From: Sulfurovum sp. FS08-3 | GTDB lineage: Bacteria; Campylobacterota; Campylobacteria; Campylobacterales; Sulfurovaceae | Direction: 5' to 3' | Assembly: GCA_000830175.1 (NCBI GenBank) | Contig: JQIS01000059.1 | Coordinates: 1-58,527, forward strand | DNA: 58,527 bases | In this document: positions 10,519-58,527 of the stretch, piece after piece | How positions within the stretch are numbered: the stretch's first letter is position 1 | How the letters are laid out: every line of letters begins with the position of its first letter | The notes under the pieces: model-generated | The model's input: only the letters and a program-made list of their open reading frames with translations | What the model was told of the DNA's origin: nothing | Databases searched by the model: none | Position numbers and translations under genes: made by a program

Positions 10519-10968
10519 GTGTATCAAAAAATATTAATTCAATTACAAGTGATTTTTACAATCTTTTTTATAATAGTTTTAGTGTTAACCTATACTCACT
10601 CTGAAGATATTAAAAAAAATGCTAGAATTCAAATAGTCGATAAAGTAATAGAATTAATTGAGCCGAAAATAAAATTAGCAGAAAAAACTGTAAATAGCAA
10701 AGGAACCCAAAAATTTTTAAATAATAGTCAAGTTAAAATAGCAAAATCTGAAATATTTTCTTATAGAAGAGATCCTATTAATTATGTAACTCAAATAATG
10801 CAAAGTAAAAATATACCAAATGGAAAGGATAATACTTTACTAAAAAAAATTTTTGACTGGCAACTAACTATTCAAAAATACATCAATGACTCTTTTTCCA
10901 ACTTACTGAAAGATATTCGAATATTTTGCACTACAAATATTATTGCTCTTTACAGGCTAGTCGGTTAG
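10519..10968 (+). pseudogene. 5' part of an unknown membrane-anchored protein, cut by R1
   Basis: The frame starts at a GTG (protein MYQKILIQLQV) and encodes one N-terminal membrane helix (VIFTIFFIIVLVLTYTH). A hydrophilic, lysine-rich, probably periplasmic part follows, as in the front end of a sensor kinase or chemoreceptor. The native frame ends at 10951. The last residues come from repeat R1, which supplies a stop. The segment is markedly AT-rich compared with its neighbours. I do not recognise the family. Confidence 0.5.
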
Positions 10969-13900
10969 CTCCTCCTAAATATGCTATAATGTAACCCATG
11001 GAACCAGTAAAGCTAAAAGAGGCTAATGTTTGAAGCACTTGCATCACAAAGGGTTGTGGATTGGTGGTGTTGTCTTCTGTGGTTGGTTCTTCGATAGTAG
11101 CGTTGTCTTCTGCTGTAGTGTTATTATCAACTACGGGTTCATTGGTACTATTATCTTCCACTGTTGGCTCTTCAGTAGTAGTATTGTCCTCTGTTGTAGG
11201 TTCATTGGTACTATTATCTTCCACTTTTGGCTCTTCGGTAGTAGTATTCTCCTCAACGGTTGGTTCTTCAGTAGTTGTATTATTTTCTACTGTGGTATTA
11301 TCTTCCGTTGTGGGTTCTTCGATAGTAGTATTATCCTCTGTTGTGGGTTCATTGGTGCTATTATCTTCCACTGTTGGCTCTTCAGTAGTAGCCTTATTCT
11401 CATTGGGTGAGGTTGAAACCTCACTTCCTGATGTGGTGTTATCCTCTGTTGTAGGTTCACTGCTGTTGTTTTCTGTTGTGCTGTTGTCCTCTGTGGGGGT
11501 CTCTAGCAATGTTTGGTTGTGGGCGTTGATGATGGCTTGTATCTCTTGACTGGTAGGATTGGCTTTGTCGCTGTATGTGCCGTTTGCCAAAGCATTGCTA
11601 TACTCCACTCCCTCAACTGCACCCGATACACCGCTAATGGCATTGAGTTCTTGCGAAGTAATAAGCGTCGTGGCGTTATCTTTGATGACTTGTTGCACTT
11701 TTTGCATTGCCAGTTCACTTGCTGTTGGGGGTGGTGGGGGAGCGTTTAGTGTGGTGACATCAAAGGCTTGACTTGCTGTCCCTACGGTAAGCGTTGCACT
11801 TACTTTGGTAGAGTAGCTACTTGAAGAGGTTAATCGTACTTTGAGAGTATCTCCACTATCGACGGTAGAGCTTGTCGTTGTCCAATTACCATCTCCGTTG
11901 ATTTCATACTCTCCACCGCTAATAGAGACGGAGGTATTAACATCGATTCCATTTATCGTTACACTATTAGATGTCAAGAGTGTACTACGGGCTTGATTGG
12001 TAAGGGCGGTGAAGCTAAAGCTATCGGGAGTTCTATCACGGCACACCTCCATAACAAACCCGCTGTTGCTTCCTGTAATGTAGAGCGTTGCATTGGCATA
12101 GGTTTCATCTTTGTTCCATCCTTTGACAATAGCACACTCATTGGCACTAGAGAGGGTATTAGCACCGCTAAACATATTACGCATCTCCGTCACACTGCTT
12201 GTATCCCAATCGCCGATGGGTTGGTTAAAGGCGGTGGCATTAGCAAACATATTACGCATATTCGTCACACTGCTTGTATTCCAATTGCCGATAGATTGGT
12301 CGAAGGCGGTGGCATTAGCAAACATACTACCCATATCCGTCACTTTGCTTGTATTCCAATCGCCGATGGGTTGGTTAAAGGCGGTCGCACTCTGAAACAT
12401 ACCAAACATATCCGTCACACTGCTTATATTCCAATTGCCGATGGATTGATTAAAGGCGGTGGCTTGATGAAACATATCACTCATATTCGTCACACTGCTT
12501 GTATCCCAATGCGAAATATTATCATTAAAGGTAGGTTTATTCCAAAACCACTCACTCATATTCGTAACCCCACTTGTACACGCATTGGCAGGTTCTACGC
12601 TTCCAATGTATGTTGTAAGTTCCTCTTTTGCCGTGATTTTGGTGTAGGTTTTGCCGTTGTAGGTAGTCGAGGCACTGGTGTTGGTGTCGCAATTGATGGT
12701 TACGCCGTTGGATTCTAGCCAAAAGCCGTTGCCCATATCTGTCCAACTAGAGGGCAATACACTGATACTACTTGAAGCTACAGAAGTATTGCCGTTGGTA
12801 TCGCTTTGGGTTGCACTCAGTGCTGTGCCACTGCTTACGGGAGTCGCAGGGGTAATGCTCCATGTGCCGTTGCTATCTACGATTGCTGTGCCGATAGTAT
12901 TATTGCTATCGTCTTTGAGCGTAATCGTCGCTCCTGCTTCACCTGTACCTGTAATGGTTGTACCGTTGGTAGAGTGAATCGTAGGTTGCGATGGGGCTAA
13001 AGTATCGATGCCCTCTAGGGTGATATTGATATCTACCGCTCCATTGCCGTCGCTAATGGTAATGATTACCCTATCGCTTCCGCTTTGGTTGGCATTGGGA
13101 GTATAAGTAATATTGGTATCGCTTATCGTTGCACTTCCTTTGCTTCCTTGTGTTTTAACAGTAGCACTCAAAGAGTCGCCATTGCTATCACTCGCACTAG
13201 AGGAGGTGTTCCAATCAAAGGTTTTGGCACTGCTACCGATAGGTGTAGTGTAGGTGAAGTGATTGGCGGTTGGGGCGACATTGCACGATGTGCCAATCGT
13301 TGCCCAAATGGGTTGTTTGTCGGTTTGACCTACAAACCCCGAAGCGTTATCAAAAGAGGTAGGCTTTGAGCCAATCAAATGAACATCCCACGATTTGAGA
13401 CATTGGTTAAAGGCGGAGGCATTCTTAAACATATTACTCATAATCGTGACTTTGCTTGTATTCCAATCGCCGATAGCTTGATTAAAGATAGTGGCACTTT
13501 TAAACATACTACTCATATTTGTCACATGGCTTGTATCCCAATTGCCGATAGCTTGGTTGAAAGCAGAAGCAACATTAAACATACTACTCATATTTATCAC
13601 ACTGCTTGTATTCCAATCGCCAATGTCTTGGTTAAAGGCGATGGCATTACTAAACATACTGCTCATAGTCGTAACTTTGCTTGTATTCCAATCGCCGATA
13701 GGTTGGTTGAAAGCAGAAGCATAATTAAACATACTACTCATGTTTGTCACTTTGCTTGTATTCCAATCACCGATAGGTTGATTAAAGATGGTGGCACTTT
13801 TAAACATACTACTCATATTTGTCACACTGCTTGTATTCCAATTGCCGATGGGTTGGTTGAAAGCAGAAGCAACATTAAACATACTGCTCATAGTCGTGAC

Positions 13901-14540: not shown

Positions 14541-14790
14541 TTCTAACGAATCTTCCCAAATTAAAGATAGCTCAAAGCACTTAACCCCCCCAACATAGGG
14601 CTTTGCAGGGCAAAATGACAAAATAATTTTCCGTGACTACACTAAAATATTCATAAGGAAAATAAGATATAATAATCACTTATAAGCCCTAAAATAGGGG
14701 TTTTGCTTGGCTTACGAACGGAAAATTTTAAGCATTCCCCATAGATAGGGCTTTTGATGGGTAATTTGAGGGGAAGATTCGTTCTAAGAA
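14541..14790. repeat. 250 bp element with imperfect inverted ends
   Basis: This occupies much of the 615-base gap upstream of the bspA-like gene. The ends GTTCTAACGAATCTTCCC (left) and its near-complement GGGGAAGATTCGTTCTAAG (right) face each other. Inner parts are also related in inverted orientation (ATTTTCCG, GGGCTTT). A hairpin CCCTA-TTTTA-GGG type structure lies near the centre. It contains no gene. It may be a small non-autonomous element or a long structured leader of the bspA-like gene. Confidence 0.55.
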
Positions 14791-14909
14791 AGTGTAACAT
14801 AAAACTAACTAAAATTTAGCTTAAATTGCAATTTTTTTACATTTTTTTTGATTTTTGGATGATTTTGTCATCAAAAAGAGACCCAAAATGACGATCATTA
14901 TAACATTTG

Positions 14910-19494: not shown

Positions 19495-19665
19495 CTATCG
19501 CCTTATACCGTTTTCAAAGCTAAGCTAACCACGGTGTTTTCTAGTGGCAATTGTATAGAAGCTTGTTAAATCAAAGGTAAATATTGACTTTTACGCACAA
19601 CCATCACCATCCTTGCTTCCGCATTGCACTCTAGTATCGTAAGGCACAAGGAAAAATACGAGAGA

Positions 19666-21042
19666 CTACTCCACAAGTTTCTCTTCAATCTCCTCAATGA
19701 CACTGTGTAGCTCTTTGTAGAGTTTGGATAGATACTCTTGCGTATGGTAGTTTTCGTAGTTGATGAGGGCGTAGTGTAGTTTCAAAGCCCCTATCTCTTT
19801 GCTGTGATTTTTCAAAGCACCTAGCATCTCTTCTAGTTCTTGAGCCTCTAAGGTTTGGAAGTACATACCGTAATACTCCGCTCTGAAATTGTGCAACTCT
19901 TCGGTATAAACCTCGGTATCGTGATGGTTATTGGCTAGTCCTATAGCCGTATCAATACTCTCAAAAGCAGGAAACGCCACTTCACGTCTATTTCTTTCGA
20001 TCTTTGTCGATACGATGGATTTTGGAAATATATATTTCAAAAGCACCTTATAGAGTGCAATGGCTTCGATAGGTTTGTCGATACAATCATCTATCTGGGC
20101 ATTGTGTTGCGTCTCGATGAAGTGCGAATTGTCCCTTAGAGCAACGATAGGCAGGGTTTGATTCCAACTCCTCATTTGCGTCACACCCTCTACTCCATTG
20201 TCGATGTCAATCAGTATGAGTTCGTAGTGATTGGGTCTATCTTGACACATCCTAAGTGCCTCTTTGGCGTTGTTGGCTCTATCGACAAAAATTTCACTTG
20301 CTTCAAGATGGTGACGTATCGATTGCACAATCACCAACGACTCCTCAATCAAAAGTATATAGGCACCACTAAGGGTACGGAGTGCATTTTTGAGATCTTC
20401 AAGTACCTCGGAGTCGTACGACAACTGCTCACTTTCATGGGCTTGGAGTGCCTCTATCTCCACCACAAAACGGCTTCCTTGATTGGACTCAATCCAAAAC
20501 TTCCCGTTCATCATCCCAGCCAAAGCTTGTGAGAGCGTAAATCCTAGCACCATCAAGCTATCAATTTCGTTGTAGGGCTTAAAAAAGCTATCGATTTGTT
20601 CCGATGTCAATTCCAAATCGCTATCTTTAATCTCAAAATACAATTGATTGCCCTCACGATAATCCACAAAAAACTCAATTGTCTCAACGTGCGTTAGCTT
20701 CATAGCATGGATAATAATATTCAAAAGAAGTTGCCGTATCCTAAAGGCATCACCTACGTAGTAGCGTTTGAGATCTTTGCCGTAGGATAGGTCAATCTTA
20801 ATCCCTTGCAGTGTGGCGTAAGTATCCAAAAGATGCATCATATCATCAAGGGTTTTGAGCAAATCAAAGCTCTCTTTTTGGATAATAAGCTCATCCATAG
20901 CCAAAGTGCTAAAATCCAATATATCGTTTACCATCTCTTCAAGTAGCTTAGCACTCGTCTCTATCTTCTCCAAATGCCTTCTTTTGGTGGGGTCAATCTC
21001 GACACCAAAGGCTATTTGAGCCGTTTGAACAATCTCTTGCAT
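19666..21042 (-). pseudogene. 3' half of a hybrid histidine kinase, split by a small element
   Basis: About 459 codons carry the end of a HisKA dimerisation domain (KRRHLEKIETSAKLLEEMVNDILDFS), a weak HATPase domain, a receiver domain (ELILIDIDNG; CIDKPIE) and a C-terminal helical domain resembling HPt. The histidine-box SHEIRTP that should precede residue 5 is missing. The HPt-like ALKNHSKEIGALKL lacks the usual phospho-accepting histidine. It follows the PAS half on the same strand beyond the 126 bp element. Around 100 codons of PAS and HisKA expected between the halves are absent, so the insertion also removed sequence. Confidence 0.75.
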
Positions 21043-21168
21043 CAGCAATTCTAACCCAACCTAAAAAGACATACAAGATATAAATCTGTCAAATAAAAGT
21101 TATTTTTCCTTTTTTCTTATTTTATCCTATTTTTTATTTGGAGATTGGAGGTTGGGTTAGAATTGCTG
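21043..21168. mobile_element. 126 bp inverted-repeat element (two R2 ends)
   Basis: The two ends are perfect 20 bp inverted repeats (21043-21062 and 21149-21168, starting CAGCAATTCTAACC). AT occurs on both outer sides, so the repeat may be 22 bp or the AT a 2 bp target duplication. The right arm continues with the longer R2 sequence found at 31691, 47920 and 58464. The 86 bp interior has no gene. Size, perfect ends and disruption of a coding region fit a MITE-type non-autonomous element. Confidence 0.75.
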
Positions 21169-22425
21169 ATCGTACAACGCTTTTGTTGTCTCACTACGTA
21201 AAATTTCGTGCGTTTTTCCCACAAGCTCCTCTTGAGCAAAGCCACTGATACGGCAAAACTCTTTGGATACAGAGATAATGACACCTTTTAAATCGGTTGT
21301 GGAGGTGATAATATGCTCATCAATTATTTCAAGATATTTTTTAATCAACTGCTCTTTTTTACGCATTTGAGTAAAGTCTCGTGCGATTCCCAATACGCCG
21401 TAAATATCGCCATTGACATCGACAATCTTGGTTTTGGTGACATGAAGATACTCTTTGTGACCATCGGAGGCGAAAGCAATCTCTTCAAAATTCGAGAGTG
21501 GTTTATCCGATTGCATCGCCATTTTGTCATGCTTAATAAAAGAATCCGCCAACTTTCTATCGACAAAATCGTAATCACTCTTGCCAATAATCACGCTCTC
21601 TTTGACACCAAAAAACTCCTCAAAGCGACGATTACATGCTAGATAGACTCCTTGAGTGTCTTTGATCCACAACAAATCGGGAATATTGTGAATAATAGCA
21701 CGAAGCTTAATGTGCGACTCTTTGATGGCTTGAACCATTTCATTGATAGCGTTGGAGAGTTTATCGAGTTCGTAGATTGCATAGCGGGGTAAACGCTTTA
21801 GGGGTATCCCCTCATCATCGCACGCTTCAAGCATTGCAATAGTGTGCGAGATAGGGGCAATCAAAAGATGGTTGAGTGCATAAAACAACGCAACGATAAG
21901 CACAGCAGAGATGATAATAATATGTTTAAGGGTCATAAAAATCATCGAATCGAGTTCTTCTTTGATTTGTTTGTCACTAAAACAAACAGAGAGTTTGGCG
22001 ATGGGTTGATTAAGCTTTGAATAGACTATCGTTTCACCTTGATAGAAACATTGCGGCAGAGTCTCTTGGTCATACTCAATCACACTCCATGCACCATCAC
22101 GCACAAAGCCACTCGTAAAGCTTCCGTCCCCTACCAATCTTCCCATCATGTAATCTTGCAAAACAATGGCGTACATATCGGAGTTGATTATTTTGCTTTT
22201 GAGTATCTCTTGGTACTCACTTACCGAGTAGGACTCGACAAAGTGGGCGATGGTGTAGCGTAGGACTTTTAAGCTCTGTTGGGTCTCTTGTTCTATTTGG
22301 CTCATTATGTCTGCTTTTTTGCCATTATAAATATAGAGTTCTTGCAGTGCAACGATGCTAATGACCACAAGTGATAATATAATACTTAATCGCACAAAAA
22401 GCGAATCTTTTGTTGCTCGTCCCAT
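21169..22425 (-). pseudogene. 5' half of a hybrid histidine kinase (HAMP-PAS-PAS)
   Basis: About 419 native codons start at ATG 22425. They encode a membrane helix, a periplasmic domain of about 120 residues, a second helix (IIIISAVLIVALFYALNHLLIAP), a HAMP region and a PAS domain (IPDLLWIKDTQGVYLACNRRF). A second PAS domain breaks off at ETTKALYD, where repeat R2 adds QQF and a stop. Upstream by 6 bases is a periplasmic binding protein gene, so the intact kinase probably read a ligand-loaded binding protein, as in LuxP/LuxQ-type pairs. Without its kinase core this half cannot signal alone. Confidence 0.8.
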
Positions 22426-28210: not shown

Positions 28211-28350
28211 TATGAGCCTTGTGCAGAGGTTTTTGCTTTGTAGGGATTAATTATACCATTTTATGGCTTTGTATGCAATAGATGCTATTTTGTTGCACAA
28301 TACCCGCAAGGAACAAAACTTGCATCTTAAGAAAATAAAAAGGATAGCGT

Positions 28351-30722: not shown

Positions 30723-31714
30723 TATAGTTTTTCCCACTCCCATGCACTTTTACAAATTTTTTCCAAATCATCATAGTGTGGTTTCCAACCCATCTGTGTC
30801 ACTATTTTGTGGTTATTAGCGACAAGTTGTGCAGGGTCTCCCTCTCTTCTTGGTGCAATGTTTACCTTGAAATCTACACCGCTAATTTTTTTTACCATCT
30901 CTATCACTTCAAAAACACTGTATCCATGCCCATAGCCACAATTAAAACTATCACTTGGATTGTTGTTTGCAAGATACTCCAACGCCTTAATGTGGGCTAA
31001 TGCCAAATCTTCAATATGAATATAATCACGAATACAACTTCCATCAAATGTATCATAATCATCACCAAACACTACGATACTTTGTCGCTTTCCCAAAGCA
31101 CTTTGTGCTATCAAAGGAATAAGATGTGTCTCTGGCGTATGAGACTCTCCCAAAGAGCCATCGCTACTTGCCCCTGCTACATTAAAATAACGCAAAGCAA
31201 CATATTTAAAATTAGGATTACTATTGGTCGCATCTTGTAAAATCTGTTCACTCATCCATTTGCTTAAACCATAAGGATTGATTGGCTTTTTGGGGTGCGT
31301 TTCGCTTATTGGAATCTCTATAGGTTCTCCATAAACGGCGGCACTAGAGCTAAAGATAAAGTAATTGACACCATATTTGAGTGCCATGTCTATAAGGTTT
31401 ATTGTATTCATAGTGTTGTTGCGATAGTATTTCAGTGGATTTTGTACCGATTCACCTACTTGTAGATGTGCCGCAAAATGGATAATAGCATCAAAATGAC
31501 TCTCTCTAAAAAGCTCTTCTAGCTTTTTAAATTCTGACAAATCCAGTAGAACAAACTCAAATTTTCCAACTTCAAATAACTTTTGCAAAACACTTATTGA
31601 GTCAAAATCTCCTCCGCAAAAATTATCGACAATCGTTACTCTCGTCTCTCTACTCTTGGCAAGTTCTTTAACCGTATGACTACCAATATACAGCAATTCT
31701 AACCCAACCTCCAA
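30722..31714 (-). CDS. galE: UDP-glucose 4-epimerase, 5' end replaced by repeat R2
   Basis: The protein matches GalE through its length: YIGSHTVKELAKS, SSSAAVYGEP, the catalytic YGLSK, ALRYFNVAGASSDG and the C-terminal RREGDPAQLVANN. GalE interconverts UDP-glucose and UDP-galactose for surface polysaccharide. The expected first ~10 residues including the glycine-rich GGAG part of the NAD-binding motif are gone. The native frame begins at 31690. Repeat R2 supplies eight replacement codons and a possible TTG start with GGAGATTGGAG upstream. With a broken NAD-binding loop the product is probably inactive, unless the junction is an assembly error. Confidence 0.85.
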   Translation of the reverse strand: MEVGLELLYIGSHTVKELAKSRETRVTIVDNFCGGDFDSISVLQKLFEVGKFEFVLLDLSEFKKLEELFRESHFDAIIHFAAHLQVGESVQNPLKYYRNNTMNTINLIDMALKYGVNYFIFSSSAAVYGEPIEIPISETHPKKPINPYGLSKWMSEQILQDATNSNPNFKYVALRYFNVAGASSDGSLGESHTPETHLIPLIAQSALGKRQSIVVFGDDYDTFDGSCIRDYIHIEDLALAHIKALEYLANNNPSDSFNCGYGHGYSVFEVIEMVKKISGVDFKVNIAPRREGDPAQLVANNHKIVTQMGWKPHYDDLEKICKSAWEWEKL

Positions 31715-31762
31715 TCTCCAAATAAAAAATAGGATAAACAGGCTAATCGGTTAGCTCCTCCT
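31691..31762 (-). repeat. Composite R2-R1 junction between galE and greA
   Basis: Positions 31691-31738 match the first 48 bases of R2 exactly. Positions 31738-31762 match the R1 core with one mismatch, which is synonymous in the GGANRLA reading. Both repeats have their conserved edge toward galE. The remaining bases 31763-31791 are not recognised. One gene is truncated on each side. Confidence 0.85.
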
Positions 31763-31791
31763 GTTACCAATCGTATCCATAAGTGATGTTT

Positions 31792-31926
31792 TTCTCTAAG
31801 GTCTCCCAAATCCCTTGCCTCTTCAATCTCTTTGGCTACTTTGGCACGTTCGATGGTTTTAAGGTTTTCAAGCTCATAAGAAAGTTTTTGATAGGTTGTT
31901 TTGGTCATTGGCTCTTTTTCGTGCAA
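31792..31926 (-). pseudogene. greA: 5' fragment of greA
   Basis: Forty-five codons match the GreA N-terminal coiled coil (KEPMTKTTYQKLSYELENLK, ending EARDLGDLRE). They start at TTG 31926 after a strong AAAAGGAGT site. The continuation NAEYHAA and the remaining ~110 residues are absent. The frame instead runs through 29 unknown bases, R1 and R2 to a stop. GreA rescues backtracked RNA polymerase by stimulating transcript cleavage. Loss would be notable in a free-living bacterium; a complete copy may exist elsewhere. Confidence 0.8.
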
Positions 31927-46612: not shown

Positions 46613-47971
46613 ATGTCTTTAGAAAAAAAAACTTATTTTGAACTACTAAATGAAATTTCACAAGATGAGTTGTTTGATGGATTGCTAGGATATGGATTAT
46701 TCGCAGATAAAATACCGCCTTTTTTAACAGCTGAAAATTTTTTAGTTTTTTGTCAAACTCGCCCAAGTGAGTTTAGTTTTGACAAGTCAGAAAAAAAATA
46801 TATTCACTATGAAAGTGTGAGAAATATAAATGTTCCAAGAGTTTTAGCCATTCCTAATCCAATTGCGTATCGCAATCAATGTAAAGTATTATCTGACAAC
46901 TGGAACAGATTGCTTGAATATTTTAAAGTGCAAACAGAAAATCAAGAACATAAAATAAGTAGAATTCATATAAGAAAAATAGATGATAGTTTTAAAGTTT
47001 TTAATACATGCTATCAAGATTTAGATGATATTGATTTAGACGATTATCCAATATTAGTTCAAAATCATCTTTTTGAAATGAATCATAAAAACTTTTGTAC
47101 AGATGATTATCCAGAGCCTAATTTGTTAATCAGCAAAAGATATGTTGTAAAGGCAGATATATCAAATTGTTTTCCGAGTATTTATACTCATTCTTTGCCT
47201 TGGGCTTTAATGACGAAACCCTATTCTAAATTACATAGAAGTTCTACGGAGTGGTTTAATGAAGTTGATTTTTATACTAGAAATTTAAAAGATGGTGAAA
47301 CGCATGGTATTTTAATAGGTAGTCATGCCTCAAATCTTATATCTGAAATTATTTTGACTGCTGTTGATAAAGCTATGTATGATAAAGGTTATAGATATAT
47401 TCGCAATATTGATGATTACAGTTGCTATATTGAGACAAAAGAAAAAGCTGAAGAGTTTTTAGTAGACTTATCCGCAGAACTTAAGGAATATGGATTAATG
47501 CTGAATCATAAAAAAACAGAAATTTTAAAATTGCCTTTGGCTTCAACAGAAAATTGGGTAAGAAAATTAAACTCTTTTGTTTTTTCAAATGATAATAAAT
47601 TGAAACTAAGCGAAGTAAGAGCTTATCTTGATATTGCCCTTGATTTGATGTTTCATAATAAAGAAAATAGTGCCATTTTAAATTATGCAATCAAAGTGTT
47701 AGCAAAAAAAGAGATGACTGCTAATGCAAAAGATTATTTTATAAAAACGGTTCATCATTTGGTGTTATTGTATCCATATTTAGTGTCTTTGCTTGAAGAT
47801 AAGATATTTACTATTTTTACTATTGATAATTTACAAATAGAAAAAATCGCAAAAGACATATTTCTACTTGGTGAATCAAAAAAACTTTATGAAGCTATGA
47901 GTTATGCTCTATTTTTTAGCAGCAATTCTAACCCAACCTCCAATCTCCAAATAAAAAATAGGATAAAATAA
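46613..47971 (+). CDS. Abi/DRT-type defence reverse transcriptase, 3' end cut by R2
   Basis: The protein resembles AbiK/AbiA-type (unknown-group) reverse transcriptases. IPNPIAYRNQCKVLSDNW comes first, then motif A VKADISNCFPSIYTHSLPWAL (D182), GETHGILIGSHASNLISEIIL, and motif C RNIDDYSCYI (D267, D268). Related enzymes give abortive-infection defence against phages and make untemplated or repeat DNA. Motif C reads NIDD instead of YxDD. Native coding ends at 47919. The last 16 residues (SNSNPTSNLQIKNRIK) come from repeat R2, so the C-terminal helical region present in AbiK is mostly lost. The gene is AT-rich, indicating transfer. Confidence 0.8.
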   Translation: MSLEKKTYFELLNEISQDELFDGLLGYGLFADKIPPFLTAENFLVFCQTRPSEFSFDKSEKKYIHYESVRNINVPRVLAIPNPIAYRNQCKVLSDNWNRLLEYFKVQTENQEHKISRIHIRKIDDSFKVFNTCYQDLDDIDLDDYPILVQNHLFEMNHKNFCTDDYPEPNLLISKRYVVKADISNCFPSIYTHSLPWALMTKPYSKLHRSSTEWFNEVDFYTRNLKDGETHGILIGSHASNLISEIILTAVDKAMYDKGYRYIRNIDDYSCYIETKEKAEEFLVDLSAELKEYGLMLNHKKTEILKLPLASTENWVRKLNSFVFSNDNKLKLSEVRAYLDIALDLMFHNKENSAILNYAIKVLAKKEMTANAKDYFIKTVHHLVLLYPYLVSLLEDKIFTIFTIDNLQIEKIAKDIFLLGESKKLYEAMSYALFFSSNSNPTSNLQIKNRIK

Positions 47972-47983
47972 GAAAAAAGGAGT
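47920..47983 (+). repeat. R2 repeat, full 64 bp copy
   Basis: This is identical to 58464-58527. Its first 48 bases match 31691-31738, and its inverted complement forms most of the right half of the 126 bp element at 21043-21168. It truncates the reverse transcriptase. Confidence 0.9.
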
Positions 47984-48054
47984 TGATAGTGTTTTTGTAT
48001 ATTATAGCAAAAAGAGGGTTGTAATAGAGTTGAAGTGTAGGGTTTTTGCGGACT
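47984..48054 (+). repeat. R3, 71 bp copy of the greA promoter region
   Basis: This differs at one position from 31939-32009, where it is the promoter of greA. No greA coding sequence is present here; R2 occupies that side. Beyond 48054 the two loci diverge. Confidence 0.85.
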
Positions 48055-58463: not shown

Positions 58464-58527
58464 CAGCAATTCTAACCCAACCTCCAATCTCCAAATAAAA
58501 AATAGGATAAAATAAGAAAAAAGGAGT
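58464..58527 (+). repeat. R2 repeat at the window end
   Basis: These 64 bases are identical to 47920-47983 and run to the last base. The sequence beyond is unknown, so it cannot be told whether the molybdoenzyme gene resumes after an insertion. Confidence 0.9.

Follow-up and report, generated by a model that had tools for sequence, protein, structure and literature searches.

A 126-bp inverted structure in Sulfurovum sp. FS08-3 very probably consists of two joined end-stubs of a collapsed insertion sequence

Background

A 126-bp stretch in Sulfurovum sp. FS08-3 (positions 21043-21168) raises the question of whether it is a small mobile element in its own right. The initial annotation placed it inside a kinase gene and took it as possibly a MITE, derived from an unseen insertion sequence (IS) with ends starting with CAG. 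The window analyzed here, 58,527 nucleotides, is the entire contig C44 of a genome of 68 contigs and 2.54 Mb. Among named relatives, the nearest one found is a metagenome-assembled genome of a Sulfurovum sp. (DYMA01), called the sister below; genome G001 of our collection appears to be this same genome, because matches fall at the same coordinates in both.

The 126-bp stretch and its two arms

The perfect inverted ends of 20-22 bp and the non-coding interior described earlier are present in the sequence, and no ORF was found within 21043-21168. The ends are perfect over 20 bp, CAGCAATTCTAACCCAACCT (CAGC...ACCT). Positions 21041-21062 and 21149-21170 are perfect inverted complements over 22 bp; of these, 20 bp make up the conserved end, and the outer AT/AT are flank bases that match by chance. 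The same 20-bp end occurs at three other window sites (31691, 47920 and 58464), always with an identical outer edge, as had also been noted.

Two arms meet inside the stretch. The B arm (21043-21106, minus strand), putatively the 3' end stub of a collapsed IS, comprises the 20-bp inverted repeat and about 44 bp, and matches the B arm of a sister contig (G001:C271) at 97%. The A arm (21107-21168, minus strand), putatively the 5' end stub, comprises the inverted repeat and the transposase 5' leader and is cut at or just before an AAGGAG-like ribosome site. From its sequence, the stretch is very probably two end-stubs of a full-length multicopy ISNCY-type IS, collapsed and joined in assembly. Of the full-length IS, the 126 bp would retain about 63 bp from each end, the 3' one as B and the 5' one as A. 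Collapse of the IS copies would leave contigs that end about 50-65 bp inside the element, with the transposase interior missing, and the stubs would then have been joined to each other, a step that we infer for the assembler.

Arms and joins across the genome

A genome-wide exact search, in which one mismatch was also counted and the reversed pattern served as control, detected 31 exact copies of the 20-bp end and one copy with one mismatch; the control gave 0-1. In an exact-pattern scan of the genome contig collection the end was found on two sister contigs and on no others. A search of viral contigs found no relative of the element. The search of the whole genome and relatives that had been proposed for this end thus recovered further copies in both.

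Inward of the end, 30 of the 32 copies run on as one of two arms, A (19 copies) or B (11 copies). Counted from the outer edge, most arms are 48-65 bp long and then either reach a contig end or change abruptly into other sequence; among the 11 B arms the cut is mostly at 52-64 bp. Three stub-stub joins were found: A-B (in the window only), B-B at C51:23086 and A-A at C48:13082. A lone structure of this kind in the genome had been named beforehand as an outcome against the mobile element; the A-B form is indeed unique genome-wide, and the other two joins are of the B-B and A-A kinds. At the other abrupt joins an arm passes into an equally short stub of an unrelated IS or into unrelated DNA. In two armless ends (C59:194445 and C43:24048) the sequence breaks directly after the 20-bp repeat; the second has a 9-bp duplication in common with C33:6726.

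The window holds three further A-arm stubs, all on the plus strand. The first (31691-31737) is cut at 47 bp, where the end of a second, unrelated IS starts (ACAGGCTARTCGGTTAGCTCCTCCT); the 61-bp stub of this second IS (31738-31798, plus strand) runs up to an abrupt join at 31798/31799. The position of the second-IS end inside the A arm, after ...AAAATAGGATAA, is probably a real nested insertion (31691-31798). The next A-arm stub (47920-47985) ends in an abrupt join to unrelated sequence, as seen by comparison with the sister's continuation, and the last (58464-58527) lies at the contig end.

The second IS served as control. This genome contains 68 of its ends. Of the 33 that were examined, nearly all stop at 56-64 bp, where the contig ends or an internal join follows. 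Inverted mini-structures, 86-124 bp long, are formed by seven end pairs. The sister has 19 ends of this IS: 9 are at most 53 bp from a contig start, and 9 more run in the opposite direction, their matches, where seen, covering no more than about 50-56 bp; none of the 19 forms a paired mini-structure in that assembly. The cut length common to two unrelated elements is a property of the assembly and of neither element. Second-IS stubs were also observed in the window at 1-58 (contig start) and 10952-11011 (an apparent internal join). In addition, a sequence of about 60 bp at about 14728-14791, AAGCATTCCCCATAGATAGGGC..., matches short stretches at many sister contig edges and is probably a third dispersed repeat.

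Target duplications

The bases immediately outside all 32 ends were compared, with shifted controls. An exact 9-bp duplication is shared by seven end pairs; 9 bp is the only length found, and the shifted controls gave about 0. All six pairs with both arms typed join A with B. Therefore, the IS duplicates 9 bp of target, and each true copy carries an A end on one side and a B end on the other. The paired insertion sites are 7 of about 25, and the partners of the remaining sites were presumably lost with dropped contigs.

The flanks of the 126-bp junction, CTCTTGCAT on the B side (21034-21042) and ATCGTACAA on the A side (21169-21177), show no 9-bp target duplication. The A-side ATCGTACAA pairs instead with the B end at C51:23086, and it is a true target duplication with its second copy on contig C51. 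For the B side, this genome was searched with the duplication-plus-end pattern and with the sister's upstream DNA, and no partner end was found in the assembly; the missing flank of the B-side insertion is therefore not in the assembly.

Flanking genes

To the left of the junction, a gene for a HisKA-HATPase-receiver histidine kinase is represented by its C-terminal part (19666-21048, minus strand); the assembly lacks the upstream part. This piece is 96% identical to G001:C171:2077-3450, where the sister frame continues upstream across the site. The ORF to the right (21157-22425, minus strand) covers the N-terminal portion of a PAS-GGDEF gene, a predicted diguanylate cyclase, which continues on C51:22396-23088. 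When the C51 flank and the right flank of the window are joined over the duplication, an open frame of 648 codons results. One PAS_3 domain is divided between the two pieces, with profile positions 1-25 in the window and 39-88 on C51, and the GGDEF domain then follows on C51 (E 2.7e-46). In the sister, the PAS-GGDEF gene runs uninterrupted across the site (contig C142, 87% identical); it has a frameshift further on, unrelated to the insertion site. The kinase (C171) and the PAS-GGDEF gene (C142) are on different sister contigs.

The join with C51 and the sister gene arrangement therefore show that the supposed two kinase halves are two genes, and a single kinase gene split by the element was rejected. 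The location "inside a kinase gene" was not confirmed: the left ORF is a kinase piece, but the right ORF is PAS-GGDEF with its remainder on C51. Kinase halves shown by read mapping not to be joined by the element had been given as a result that would speak against it, and the finding of different genes comes close to this. The empty sites and target duplications that were to be looked for were obtained in part: the sister site is uninterrupted and seven 9-bp pairs exist in the genome, but there is none at the 126-bp junction itself.

Two observations were made in the surroundings. On C51 (21586-23085), a nifH-like gene (MSALRQIAFYGKGGIGKSTT...) was seen by eye directly downstream of the PAS-GGDEF gene that is interrupted. 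Furthermore, synteny with sister contigs C142 and C171 breaks at 19607-19665 and 28291-28307, with no obvious IS stub; these breaks are either a real rearrangement or another misjoin.

Alternative explanations

The most probable alternative, itself a form of the collapse reading, is true recombination between two full-length copies of the IS, of which one lay in the kinase gene and the other in the PAS-GGDEF gene; kinase-IS-GGDEF would then be the true order, with the interior lost in assembly. A single intact IS would have this orientation, with B on the left and A on the right, and recombination between copies would leave 9-bp flanks that do not match. However, the A-A and B-B joins of the same assembly cannot arise in this way, the cut length shared with the unrelated IS points to the assembler, and the reciprocal product was not seen. 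We consider recombination unlikely and favour a pure misjoin. Under misjoin and recombination alike, a 126-bp mobile element is absent.

A true 126-bp MITE, or an internal-deletion derivative mobilised by the IS transposase, is far less probable. MITEs in general are likewise short, with inverted ends and no ORF, and the stretch has the perfect inverted ends and non-coding interior of such an element; the parent IS also exists. Against this, there is a single A-B unit in the genome where several copies would be expected, and CTCTTGCAT and ATCGTACAA do not match as a flanking target duplication would. The flanks come from different genes, and the true partner of one is elsewhere (C51). Both parent ends are present in the stretch, and its midpoint falls at the generic cut length of this and the unrelated IS. 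Similarly, a real non-autonomous ISNCY-type derivative of 126 bp, lying between the two genes and with its duplication removed by deletion or recombination, is very improbable. The MITE reading was therefore rejected, since the duplication is lacking, the unit occurs once and its halves have the generic cut length; assembly stubs explain the stretch. From the earlier proposal, the multicopy IS remains; the MITE does not, given the lack of a duplication, the different genes and the generic cut length. Finally, a chance or purely structural palindrome unconnected with mobile DNA, in favour of which no evidence emerged, has a negligible probability in view of the 31 exact genome copies against 0-1 in the control and of the target duplications that the ends carry.

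The underlying insertion sequence

The parent IS, which would encode a DDE transposase of the ISNCY-annotated kind, has the 20-bp ends CAGCAATTCTAACCCAACCT and a 9-bp target duplication. No complete IS copy or transposase match was found in the assembly of this genome, as a collapsed multicopy repeat would leave none. In the sister (G001:C216 / DYMA01000082), the A arm is followed by an AAGGAG-like site and by the N-terminus of a transposase. This N-terminus has weak Pfam matches (DDE_Tnp_1 and DDE_Tnp_1_assoc) and a clear match to plasmid-borne IS transposases, cyanobacterial and other, one of them annotated ISNCY; identity to the homologous DDE transposases is 39.5-46% (profile E 4.7e-39). 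The terminal CAGCAATTCT of the ISNCY-type CAGCAATTCT group, as annotated, is shared. The 9-bp duplication is seen in the seven pairs reported here, in two Calothrix copies and at locus L096, and not at the 126-bp junction.

The relatives differ in detail. The ISNCY-annotated IS of Gloeothece verrucosa PCC 7822 plasmid Cy782202 (NC_014534, WP_013335080) matches the sister transposase N-terminus at 39.5% (E 1e-12). It is 1766 bp long and has the same outer end CAGCAATTCT, but its repeat diverges further inward and that copy is without matching 9-bp flanks. The plasmid IS of Calothrix sp. PCC 7716 (AP025021 / AP025020), 1865 bp long, has CAGCAATTCT ends, each of its two copies shows a 9-bp duplication, and its transposase is 45.8% identical over the N-terminus; it comes from a distant phylum, and here too the repeat diverges further inward. 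A full-length transposase gene bounded by the same ends had been named as something to look for. None was found in this genome. A complete relative of 1585 bp (L096, 1246-2830) is present in a genome of the same order and has CAGCAATTCTAA ends, an open frame of 441 codons and the 9-bp duplication ACGAGACCA. The inner terminal sequence and transposase of this element differ from those of the IS described here. By analogy with these relatives, the parent IS is probably 1.6-1.9 kb long. None of the papers retrieved in our literature searches visibly describes the ends or the duplication of the CAGCAATTCT group.

Conclusions

Stub-to-stub joins at collapsed IS copies look exactly like MITEs, which calls for caution; the gene order and gene breaks at 21.04-21.17, 31.69-31.80 and 47.92-47.99 kb of the window are therefore untrustworthy, and that at 10.95-11.01 kb is probably so as well. 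Contig ends can be re-paired without reads by matching the 9-bp target duplications. The IS itself is an ordinary and apparently undescribed representative of a known kind; it occupies about 25 distinct sites in this Sulfurovum-type genome, and the biology underlying these structures would be its ordinary transposition into those sites.
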